From a virus: DNA of 22,407 bases. Where the stretch lies: positions 1-22,407 of IMG/VR virus record IMGVR_UViG_3300025646_000422; one strand, 5' to 3'. The position numbers and the translations under genes are program-made. This document shows positions 1 through 22,407 of this stretch, one piece after another. The notes below the pieces were generated by a model that worked only from the letters and a program-made list of their open reading frames with translations, ran no database searches and was not told the DNA's origin. Numbering within the stretch: the first letter of the stretch is position 1; each line of letters opens with the position of its first letter.

Positions 1-42
1 GGGGTCGGGGTCGCGGTCGGGGTCGGGGTCGGGGTCGGGGTC
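1..42. repeat. GGGGTC hexamer tandem array at contig edge
   Basis: Seven tandem 6-nt units of GGGGTC fill positions 1-42, with one variant unit (GCGGTC at 13-18). The array is cut by the window edge, so its true length is unknown. The unit is a multiple of three and stays open in the frame that stops at 73-75, where it reads alternating Gly-Val. It could therefore be the low-complexity end of a coding sequence rather than intergenic DNA. Confidence 0.85.
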
Positions 43-75
43 GGTTTAGTTACGAAAGTGAGGAAGATGAAATGA
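1..75 (+). CDS. Possible 3' end of an upstream gene, Gly-Val repeat tail
   Basis: Frame 1 is open from the window edge to a TGA at 73-75. It reads an alternating Gly-Val stretch from the hexamer repeat and then a short basic tail (LVTKVRKMK). The stop overlaps the ATG of the next gene as ATGA, the same junction that links most later genes of this + strand train. This suggests the train continues leftward. Only 24 codons are visible and most are repeat, so it could be chance. No function can be given. Confidence 0.3.
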   Translation, partial: GVGVAVGVGVGVGVGLVTKVRKMK

Positions 76-1391: not shown

Positions 1392-1558
1392 AACCAACGA
1401 TCAAAAAACAGATGAAAAAGGACATTCATTTTGTCGCCAAATTTTACGGTCTGTCACCGGAATCTGAGCGTATGGCGCACCTGTCTGCTCAAGATTCAGA
1501 ACGGGCGCGATCCATTTATCGAAAAATCAGAGAATCTATTGAGAGGGAACGGCACTAA
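1388..1558 (+). CDS. Hypothetical 56-aa basic protein, end of + strand train
   Basis: This is a 56-residue, strongly basic, helical protein starting MKPTIKKQMKKDIHFV and ending RESIERERH. A GGGAGG ribosome site precedes the ATG, and the start overlaps the previous stop as ATGA. It is the last gene of the + strand train. Its 3' end crosses the 3' end of the endolysin gene on the other strand by 23 bp, leaving no intergenic terminator. No family is recognised. The ribosome site and coupling support it. Confidence 0.6.
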   Translation: MKPTIKKQMKKDIHFVAKFYGLSPESERMAHLSAQDSERARSIYRKIRESIERERH

Positions 1559-2081
1559 TCATCTGTTCAGCCGCTTTTTCAACGGCCGCAACGCGGTTAA
1601 GCCACCCCTTCAAGAACTTCTCTTGGTCTGGTTTGGACGCGACAATAGCCTTATAAAATGCCTCTTTATACTGGCTCATTTTATGGATAATGGCTTTAGG
1701 CTCATCTTTCATGGCCGCCAGTGCCGCCAGTGTAGCCGGGCCGATAGCGCCATCGGCGTTTACGCCAACGATCGTTTGTAGCATCTTGGCGCCGCGGCCA
1801 ACGCCGCCATTAACCGCCAGGTCAAACACCATGTAATCCACGCCGGTCGGCAACGAATCGCATTTGCACTTGTCCCAGTAACGGCTCTTGTAGAACGGTT
1901 TTACCTCGGATTTGGTCAACGCCTTCATTTCACCATCTTGGATAGGGCGCTTGAGATATTCCGACCAAGCTGCTTTAGTGACTCCCAAATTAGTTTCACC
2001 ACCATGATCATGTGGGTCATTGACGTAGCCTCCTTCACTGGCAATTACGTGTTCAAACGATTTTTCCCAATTCTCAATCAT
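1536..2081 (-). CDS. Endolysin, GH108-type N-acetylmuramidase
   Basis: This 181-residue endolysin should cleave the glycan backbone of host peptidoglycan at the end of infection. The N-terminal signature SEGGYVNDPHDHGGETNLGV matches glycosyl hydrolase family 108. Glu16 in the SEGGY motif is the expected catalytic acid. The C-terminal part (about 95-180) fits the peptidoglycan-binding domain usual in this family. There is no signal peptide, so release should need the holin upstream. GAGG lies six bases before the ATG. The start overlaps the preceding small membrane gene by 8 bp, and the 3' end overlaps the last + strand gene. Confidence 0.93.
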   Translation of the reverse strand: MIENWEKSFEHVIASEGGYVNDPHDHGGETNLGVTKAAWSEYLKRPIQDGEMKALTKSEVKPFYKSRYWDKCKCDSLPTGVDYMVFDLAVNGGVGRGAKMLQTIVGVNADGAIGPATLAALAAMKDEPKAIIHKMSQYKEAFYKAIVASKPDQEKFLKGWLNRVAAVEKAAEQMISAVPSQ

Positions 2082-2286
2082 CTTTTGCCTCGCCCACCTT
2101 GATTCCAGTAATCAACCCGATAAATCCACCCACAATGGTCTGGAAGGCAGGGCCGATTACGTCAAAGACCACCTTATCGTCCACGGCGGGGTCGAGAATG
2201 GCATACGCGAACATCCCGCACATTGCCACCACTACAGCCGACAAAGAAAGCGTTGAGGCCGCAATGCAGAAGTCTTTAGTGGTCAT
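2074..2286 (-). CDS. Small two-TM protein, holin-like or antiholin candidate
   Basis: This is a 70-residue membrane protein with two predicted hydrophobic helices at about residues 10-31 and 42-65, joined by an Asp-rich turn. The C-terminus is charged (KVGEAKDD). It lies between the 3TM holin and the endolysin, overlapping the former by ATGA and the latter by 8 bp. That position and topology fit a class II holin-like protein or a holin modulator. A second holin-like gene next to a recognised holin may be an antiholin, but the sequence alone cannot separate these roles. Confidence 0.75.
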   Translation of the reverse strand: MTTKDFCIAASTLSLSAVVVAMCGMFAYAILDPAVDDKVVFDVIGPAFQTIVGGFIGLITGIKVGEAKDD

Positions 2287-2693
2287 TGTTTAGCCCTCAT
2301 GTCCATAATCTTCTCAAGCGTCCTGCCGCCAAAATAGAACGACATGATCAACATACCCCATTGCCCCAACAGTTCCACATAGGTCTTGTTGGTATCCATG
2401 CCAAAGGCGCTCATCATGGCAAACGTGAAATAGCCCGACAGGATCGCAATCAGGGTCATTGGCCGGATATTCTTGGACAGCCACGAATCCGAGGCCATGT
2501 CTGCCTTGAGCCGGTCAGTCAGATTGTTCTGTTCCAACTCAAACAGCTTGGTTTCGTTTGCCATCTTCGCCAGTTCACCATCTTGAGCGAGTTTGGCAAG
2601 TTCCATCTGCGCTTTGGCTTTAGCTTCAGGATCGGGCAAAACCTTGTCAAGAATCTTGCCGCCAATTTCAAGCAATCCGGCTATCGGGAACAT
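2283..2693 (-). CDS. Holin of the GTA 3TM family
   Basis: This 136-residue protein resembles the 3TM holin family first described for gene-transfer-agent release. It would form membrane lesions that let the endolysin reach the cell wall. An N-terminal hydrophobic/amphipathic segment (residues 1-20) is followed by a charged Ala/Lys/Glu helix. The family hallmark WLSKNIRPMT lies at residues 71-80, then membrane helices at about 81-99 and 107-122. The ATG lies three bases after the stop of the frameshifted reading of the preceding gene, and its stop overlaps the next start as ATGA. The call rests on the WLSKNIRP motif and neighbourhood. Confidence 0.85.
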   Translation of the reverse strand: MFPIAGLLEIGGKILDKVLPDPEAKAKAQMELAKLAQDGELAKMANETKLFELEQNNLTDRLKADMASDSWLSKNIRPMTLIAILSGYFTFAMMSAFGMDTNKTYVELLGQWGMLIMSFYFGGRTLEKIMDMRAKQ

Positions 2694-2696
2694 AAA

Positions 2697-2861
2697 TCAC
2701 CTGTAAAGGGCTGGAAAAGCGTAGCGAAAGAAATATGCGATTTCGTGGCTATACATTACCAATACAACAACTACGTAGACGCCGCCGATAAACAGTAAAT
2801 ACAACAGTATGGCGGTAAAAATAGATAAAATGCAGTCTTTAATTCCGTTTCTGATTGCTTC
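2697..2861 (-). CDS. -1 frame extension with membrane helix
   Basis: After a -1 slip at the A-run, translation would continue for 54 residues starting EAIRNGIKDC. It would pass through a long hydrophobic helix (ILSIFTAILLYLLFIGGVYV and onward) and end ...FPALYR with TGA at 2697-2699. The reading has no internal stop and lacks its own well-placed start. It ends with TGA-TTT-ATG directly before the holin, filling what would otherwise be a 77-bp gap in a tightly packed operon. Its membrane-helix composition contrasts with the unlikely 0-frame tail. Whether expressed by frameshifting or by a true in-frame sequence with ten A bases, it is probably part of this gene. Confidence 0.8.
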   Translation of the reverse strand, partial: EAIRNGIKDCILSIFTAILLYLLFIGGVYVVVVLVMYSHEIAYFFRYAFPALYR

Positions 2862-3268
2862 TTTTTTTTTAGTTTTTGCTGTTCCACCCTGTTTTGATCG
2901 CGTATCTCCTGCTGTCTGGACTCGATGATATTTGCGCGGATATCACACATTCGCTTATACATATCGAGTTTCCCTTGCAGGGAAAACATATTTCGCAACT
3001 CCTGTTCTGCCGCCCGCAGCTCCTCGGCCCGTAAAACGCAGTCCATTGCGATAGCTGTGGCCGACTTTTCCTTATTACGTTTCGGGTCTTTGCGGATCGC
3101 CTCGGCTTCTTTGGCCGCCGCCTCTACCTCACCCTGGGCGGTAAAAAACGAACCCAATTCCTTAGTCATCGAGGCGATATCGTGCCCGACGTTAATCGCC
3201 TCGCGGATCATATTAACCGCGGTCTTGGCGCCGGCTACCGCCAGCCCGATTGATACCGGGTCGATCAT
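2771..3268 (-). CDS. Coiled-coil protein, 0-frame product of a probable -1 frameshift gene
   Basis: The 0-frame product has 165 residues. An N-terminal hydrophobic stretch (MIDPVSIGLAVAGAKTAV) precedes long charged, heptad-rich helices at about residues 45-135. The 0-frame ends in an odd Cys-rich tail (FYLFLPPYCCIYC). A run of nine A bases (2862-2870) followed by G contains the slippery heptamer A AAA AAG at codons 134-136. Shifting by -1 there opens a 54-residue reading with a strong hydrophobic helix, giving a 190-residue protein ending at 2697. I recall similar phage proteins with a coiled coil and C-terminal membrane span, role unknown. A lost base in the homopolymer is the alternative. 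Confidence 0.8.
   Translation of the reverse strand: MIDPVSIGLAVAGAKTAVNMIREAINVGHDIASMTKELGSFFTAQGEVEAAAKEAEAIRKDPKRNKEKSATAIAMDCVLRAEELRAAEQELRNMFSLQGKLDMYKRMCDIRANIIESRQQEIRDQNRVEQQKLKKKKQSETELKTAFYLFLPPYCCIYCLSAAST
2861..2867 (-). other. Slippery heptamer A AAA AAG (-1 frameshift site)
   Basis: On the - strand the heptamer reads A AAA AAG in the phase of the coiled-coil gene (Lys135 and Lys136 codons). This is the motif used in E. coli dnaX frameshifting. It lies at the end of a 9-A run. A Shine-Dalgarno-like AGGGTGG (2884-2890) is 16 nt upstream, somewhat farther than in dnaX. I see no convincing hairpin directly downstream. Confidence 0.7.
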
Positions 3269-3433
3269 TTAGGTCTTGGTCACCAGATGCAGCAGCAGCA
3301 TGATGATCGCGCCCGCGGTGCTGATCAGGATCGTTTCAAGTCGTTTAATCCGCAGGATGGTTTCCGTCCACCGTTCCTCGCATACCGCCTCATGGGTGTT
3401 AAGCCGGCCTTCGACCTCATTTATTGTGGTCAT
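3269..3433 (-). CDS. 54-aa XhlA-like coiled-coil/TM protein
   Basis: This is a 54-residue protein starting MTTINEVEGRLNTHEAVCEE. The N-terminal half is an amphipathic helix. The C-terminal half is a membrane helix at about residues 36-52 (ILISTAGAIIMLLLHLV). The layout resembles XhlA-type or related small lysis-cassette proteins, and I recall the THEAVC pattern in other phage genomes. The start overlaps the preceding stop as TAATG, and its TAA directly abuts the next ATG. Position just upstream of the coiled-coil and holin genes supports a membrane role in lysis or DNA entry. The exact function is unknown. Confidence 0.75.
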   Translation of the reverse strand: MTTINEVEGRLNTHEAVCEERWTETILRIKRLETILISTAGAIIMLLLHLVTKT

Positions 3434-22060: not shown

Positions 22061-22162
22061 CCCGTTTGACTTTTTTCTGAGGGTTGGGGGCACCGCAAAT
22101 TTCTCGTGCCACCGCCTACCCCCTCCCCCCCCATGCTTCGAGCCGCCAGCCACCAGGCACGC

Positions 22163-22314
22163 GGGTGCCGGGCGCCGGGCGCCGGGCGATGGGCGATCGG
22201 GCGATGGGCGATGGGCGATCGGGCGCCGGGCGATGGGCGATCGGGCGCCGGGCGCCGGGCGCCGGGCGATGGGCGCCGGGCGATCGGGCGATGGGCGATC
22301 GGGCGATGGGCGAT
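22163..22314. repeat. Tandem 7/8-mer array of GGGCGAT and GGGCGCC units
   Basis: Twenty-one units lie end to end, the first degenerate (GGGTGCC). Seven of the rest are GGGCGCC and thirteen are GGGCGAT. Five of the GAT units carry an extra C, which creates CGATCG palindromes, and the extra C is never found after a GCC unit. The order of the two unit types is irregular. The array is about 152 bp and very GC-rich with strong strand asymmetry. Confidence 0.9.
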
Positions 22315-22407
22315 CTGGCCGACAGCTGGAAACCGTCGGACAATTTGACATAATGTGGCAAGCGGAAAGACTTGCGGCAGGCTGTAAGCCTTACTTTTGC
22401 ACTTTGA

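Follow-up and report, generated by a model that had tools for sequence, protein, structure and literature searches.

A conserved run of nine A's and its probable slippage in a phage lysis-region gene with two predicted products

Layout of the gene and its lysis-region neighbours

The window, the whole 22,407-nt stretch of viral DNA that was analysed, carries on its minus strand a gene that lies next to holin and endolysin genes (Table 1). Read in its own (0) frame, this gene encodes a helical or coiled-coil domain (residues 1-133), followed by a Lys tract and then by a tail of about 29 residues that is specific to the clade described below. The codons across its run of nine A's (A9) are CTA AAA AAA AAG AAG, and the −1 frame past this point holds an extension that completes a membrane-anchored product of 190 aa, a length derived from the codons. 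An earlier note on this DNA had proposed that a −1 shift at the run joins the coiled-coil protein to a membrane helix beside the holin, and the layout that it described is accurate to the base. The run and the heptamer A_AAA_AAG lie in the phase of the gene; the −1 frame consists of 54 codons with the helix and stops 3 nt short of the ATG of the holin (2691-2693); the unshifted frame is followed by a 77-bp gap (2694-2770); the AGGGTGG sequence stands 16 nt from the heptamer and 13 nt from the run; and the product lengths of 165 and 190 aa both agree with the codons.

Table 1. Coordinates of the frameshift gene, its slip site and the adjoining genes in the window
Feature	Position	Strand	Details
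0-frame gene	2771..3268	minus (3268→2771)	165 aa; short product
A9 slippage run (predicted)	2862..2870	minus	CTA AAA AAA AAG; A_AAA_AAG in phase
−1-frame extension	2697..2870	minus	54 codons past the Lys tract (EAIRNGIKDCILSIFTAILLYLLFIGGVYVVVVLVMYS...); stop TGA at 2697-2699
Transmembrane helix core	2754..2831	minus	ILSIFTAILLYLLFIGGVYVVVVLVM; KD19 2.87
AGGGTGG	2884..2890	minus	proposed Shine-Dalgarno-like stimulator; unconserved
AGGTGA	2697..2702	minus	ribosome-binding site of the next gene; overlaps the −1-frame stop; invariant in the clade
Holin	2283..2693	minus	136 aa; PF11351 GTA_holin_3TM; PHROG 3427 holin
Membrane protein of the lysis module	2074..2286	minus	70 aa; without family match
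Endolysin	1536..2081	minus	glycosyl hydrolase 108 and peptidoglycan-binding domain, by family matches
54-aa protein	3269..3433	minus	one C-terminal membrane helix; directly upstream of the frameshift gene

Small membrane proteins similar to the one encoded directly upstream are also found upstream of the gene in three other loci (L012, L013 and L041), and in most loci with recognizable phage neighbours the gene adjoins holin and endolysin genes. A promoter and terminator scan near the gene found neither. Both ends of the contig (window positions 1-44 and 22162-22319) consist of G-rich tandem repeats, GGGGTC repeated seven times and a CGGGCGATGGGCGAT-type repeat, possibly end repeats or artefacts of the assembly.

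Conservation of the run and of both reading frames

Viral contig scans yielded eight further metagenomic phage contigs (L002-L009), each encoding the same protein with an identity of 80-95%, giving with the window a clade of nine contigs and eight distinct sequences, L008 and L009 encoding an identical protein. Exactly nine A's, with the helix in the −1 frame, are present in all nine contigs, which come from different metagenomes. Silent sites in the clade are close to saturation (pS 0.62-0.70), so that its sequences are not merely recent copies of one another. Taken alone, one A9 in a 22-kb window is unremarkable, about one being expected from shuffled sequence; it is the comparative evidence that raises this run above chance. 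Across all members the helix has a hydropathy of 2.5-3.0 in a 19-residue window, and dN/dS over its region is 0.15 when read in the −1 frame, against 0.66 for the 0 frame and 2.6 for the +1 frame; the N-terminal domain, read in the 0 frame, has 0.05. By this measure, purifying selection acts on the helix as encoded by the −1 frame.

The run itself is constrained at silent positions. The longest invariant block in seven diverged sequences is TAAAAAAAAAGAA, of 13 nt, which has A9 at its centre; the next longest invariant block measures 7 nt, and in the N-terminal part two adjacent third positions are never both invariant. The codon before the run is CTA, GTA, ATA or TTA depending on the member, so that the residue varies (Leu, Val or Ile) and the third-base A is constant; the chance of finding xTA AAA AAA in six lineages is about 4e-8 if these are independent. 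In L008 and L009 the run is shifted 4 nt downstream and stands in another codon phase (GAG AAA AAA AAA GAC), still with nine A's and still with the helix in the −1 frame. Judged from these alignments, the conserved thing is the run itself, beyond what the codons alone would call for. A run of this kind is slippery for DNA polymerases too (PMC3711429), and its length could change reversibly during replication, so that the anchor would be on in some phage genomes and off in others. Such phase variation is very unlikely here, given that no assembled member has A8 or A10 and that selection on silent bases holds the run at nine.

The 0 frame past the run also bears a mark of selection. Its tail has no stop codon in 28 codons of any of the eight sequences, where about 6-12 would be expected (12 with same-residue recoding of the helix). 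With each lineage represented by a single sequence and codon usage set at its least favourable, we obtained a conservative P of 4.5e-4 for stop avoidance, a statistic that presumes partly independent lineages. As a control, the +1 frame of the same stretch has 4 stops against 7.5 expected (P 0.06), and stops were not significantly depleted in either frame further downstream or in either alternative frame of the N-terminal part. Since the 0 frame stays open for at least 28 codons, two products from one gene, as the earlier note had it, are likely, and on this pattern we consider it quite likely that both would be functional.

The residues of the 0-frame tail are unconserved (0-3 Cys) and its hydropathy is that given by the overlap alone, and it appears from the comparison that the length of this tail matters rather than its sequence. 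The odd Cys-rich tail pointed out earlier is real in the window (3 Cys) and is no feature of the clade, the other members having 0-2 Cys. With a KD19 of 1.3-1.7, against 2.5-3.0 for the helix, the tail may touch the membrane. Of the proposal that the short product is soluble and the long one membrane-anchored, the second half fits the helix in the −1 frame, and the term soluble becomes uncertain for a tail that is moderately hydrophobic.

These observations bear on the simplest rival explanation, namely that one A was lost through an assembly or sequencing error, the true run having ten A's and the gene being a plain in-frame one. Homopolymers are indeed error-prone, and the relatives outside the clade are in frame. 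Against this, all nine contigs, from different metagenomes, have A9, and they have it in two codon phases; moreover, a stop-free 0 frame of 28 codons would be needless in a plain in-frame gene. We regard an error as extremely unlikely, the sequences of the clade contradicting this alternative of the earlier note, and recoding at A9 as very probably real on the comparative evidence.

Relatives with the helix in frame

The N-terminal domain matches PHROG 32327, a family of unknown function, over residues 1-131 (E 7e-8). Like the protein of the window, the homologues in this family, from uncultured Caudovirales, consist of a helical domain and a C-terminal membrane helix, and many adjoin holin or endolysin genes; unlike it, they have the helix in frame, slippage being predicted only in the clade of the window. 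Outside the clade, each full-length relative that was read encodes the helix in frame and lacks A9, so that homologues have it behind the A-run within the clade and in frame elsewhere. Homologues lacking any C-terminal membrane helix, which would have spoken against the proposed anchor, did not appear among the full-length relatives read. In the closest in-frame relative, L010, the helix is homologous to the −1 helix of the clade (BLASTP 4e-8, hhalign 96%) and occupies the same residue positions. This homology marks the −1 helix as the genuine C-terminal end of proteins of the family. With such relatives in frame, the shifted product would be the standard form of the family and the unshifted product an extra form.

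The in-frame relatives also weigh on the idea that the helix is a separate small gene with its own start, translated for example by reinitiation and never fused to the upstream domain. Reinitiation is common in phage operons. In every member of the clade, however, the −1 frame lacks an ATG, GTG or TTG between the last upstream stop and the helix, and the in-frame relatives are fusions. Short of a non-canonical start, we consider a separate gene the least credible of the alternatives, with next to no chance of being right.

In the protein tree L010 is nested inside the frameshift group with moderate support (83/96), which would mean either a single origin of the frameshift with later repair in L010, or two separate origins. 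Its in-frame gene inside the clade makes the recoding dispensable in at least one relative, and offers a natural comparison for the question of why both forms exist beside the holin. The gene of L010 lies on an AT-rich 133-kb contig (34% GC in the part examined), without the same lysis genes adjoining; it possibly came there by gene transfer with frame repair.

In the gene of another relative, from the in-frame branch (L074:3001-3480), a frame change that lies outside any homopolymer interrupts the coding sequence after codon 90. This is probably an error or a mutation, and contrasts with the A9 clade.

A tblastn search of phage isolates with the window protein returned no match, and the same search with a distant relative returned only the Roseobacter phages CRP-901 and CRP-902, weakly (E 5e-3 and 6e-4) and under the annotation 'peptidase'. 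The CRP-902 gene (gp45, L082:2965-3432; E 6e-4) is a weak distant homologue, and its GenBank name 'peptidase' finds no support in our data. In bacterial and archaeal genome contigs, relatives were not found.

Slippage mechanism, precedents and likely role

The −1 frame could be reached through the RNA polymerase or through the ribosome. A9 in Thermus thermophilus dnaX gives about 50% slippage (PMC5009743), A9 in an Escherichia coli test cassette of another gene gives 40% (PMC3711429), and in many bacterial genomes selection against such runs becomes evident at the A9 length (PMC1088944). The alternative, ribosomal −1 programmed frameshifting, would have tRNA-Lys re-pair one base back on A_AAA_AAG with the help of the upstream AGGG. 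The heptamer does have the correct phase in L002-L007 as well as in the window, A_AAA_AAA being possible in L008, and the window and L003-L007 have AGGG or AGGA about 13-16 nt before the run. However, a ribosomal slip needs 7 nt, whereas the run is held at nine A's, one of them the silent third base of the codon that precedes the Lys codons; the 13-nt block, this silent A and the phase of L008 all show a run length kept beyond the needs of the protein or of a ribosomal heptamer. Nor is a stimulator apparent. The dnaX-like AGGGTGG proposed in the earlier note is not conserved, since L002 has AAG in place of AGGG, and L008 has CGC there and an AGGG of its own misplaced further upstream, about 25 nt away. 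Downstream of the run, 60-nt folds gave z-scores of −1.3 to +1.1 and RNAalifold gave −1.9 kcal/mol, so that a search limited to structures other than pseudoknots detected no stimulator. In E. coli, X_XXZ_ZZN heptamers without stimulators reach at most about ten times a background of 0.055%, well under 1% (PMC4066793).

The conserved run length, the tolerance of codon phase, the lack of a detected downstream RNA structure and the unconserved 'Shine-Dalgarno' all favour transcriptional slippage, which we infer from these sequence features to be probably the main mechanism. A ribosomal slip in that position, at odds with nine A's kept in two codon phases and with no downstream structure found, is rather improbable. 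We propose that it is mostly the RNA polymerase that slips on the nine A's, so that some mRNAs would contain one extra A (or 1+3n). These mRNAs would be read into the −1 frame and would give the full-length family protein, with its helical or coiled-coil N-terminal domain and C-terminal anchor, and unslipped mRNA would give the 165-aa form, which ends in a weakly hydrophobic tail of about 29 residues where the other has the genuine anchor. The proportion of the two would presumably tune the amount of a lysis-module protein in the inner membrane beside the holin. As a whole, this account of a lysis-region gene that yields two products via slippage at a conserved A9 is probable in our view.

Several known systems resemble the one proposed here. 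In T. thermophilus dnaX, as in the clade, A9 lies within a coding region, and there transcripts of mixed length yield two proteins in comparable amounts (PMC5009743, PMC1088944). There, however, the unslipped transcript gives the long product, whereas here the shifted one would give the full-length protein standard for the family; the gene also differs, it lies in a phage, and its slippage is predicted from sequence. Among cases with experimental support, tssM1 of Citrobacter rodentium comes closest: transcriptional slippage of 20-25% at an A-run produces a membrane protein in two length variants, and both are needed, in a set ratio (PMC4256274). In this gene (A11), in Yersinia tssM3 (PMC4256274) and, by prediction, in the clade, slippage at a poly-A run brings back the C-terminal portion of a membrane protein and gives two length variants from one gene, and the relatives are single-frame. 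Unlike tssM, which belongs to type VI secretion, the gene described here lies in a phage lysis module, and it is the membrane anchor itself that stands behind the slip. The −1 ribosomal frameshifting of E. coli dnaX, copA and IS-type elements uses the same A_AAA_AAG heptamer in the same phase; unlike these sites, the clade has no conserved downstream structure or Shine-Dalgarno, and the nine-A length is kept. With the G/GT tail-assembly chaperone of lambda the clade shares a conserved −1 shift in the late region of a dsDNA phage and, as predicted here, two products with a common N terminus, but the gene and its position are different, being in the lysis module, and the extension is a membrane helix.

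An open-access full-text search, judged by titles and abstracts, found no earlier recoding in phage lysis genes. The slippage trick itself is known, and for this kind of gene no earlier report was found within that search; the locus would be a clean, conserved case of recoding in the lysis region of a dsDNA phage. Standard single-frame gene calling would truncate such a gene and lose its membrane anchor.

An AlphaFold2 model of L010 (mean pLDDT 89) has helices at residues 4-26, 31-60, 68-97 and 101-185, and forms a helical bundle whose last helix continues into the membrane segment. A fold search with this model in BFVD returned only unnamed phage homologues, and in the PDB the best match was not significant (E 0.4), syntaxin-like bundles being among the matches. 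The Lys residues before the helix suggest, by the positive-inside rule, that the N-terminal domain faces the cytoplasm. Two observations exclude a spanin: an Rz-type i-spanin needs a membrane helix at its N terminus and, behind it, a coiled coil in the periplasm, and the helix here is C-terminal; a separate Rz-like gene lies nearby in L024 and L042. The best reading is that of a tail-anchored helical protein of the lysis region. From gene order, a role in lysis is somewhat favoured, and the most likely role would be that of an accessory or regulator of holin action. A more specific but doubtful reading is that slippage by the RNA polymerase at A9 fixes the proportion of anchored to unanchored protein, the two forms being opposed and together timing the triggering of the holin. 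If true, it would make this the first phage lysis cassette with a switch based on transcriptional slippage.

The gene next to the frameshift gene varies within the clade, being a GTA-type holin gene, another holin-like gene or a gene for an 87-aa membrane protein, and the AGGTGATnTATG junction to it is the same in every clade contig. Past this invariant junction the module is swapped among L002-L008, with endolysins of the GH108 or the lysozyme type, different holins and sometimes the 87-aa membrane protein as an extra, a pattern that would suit a recombination boundary at the junction.
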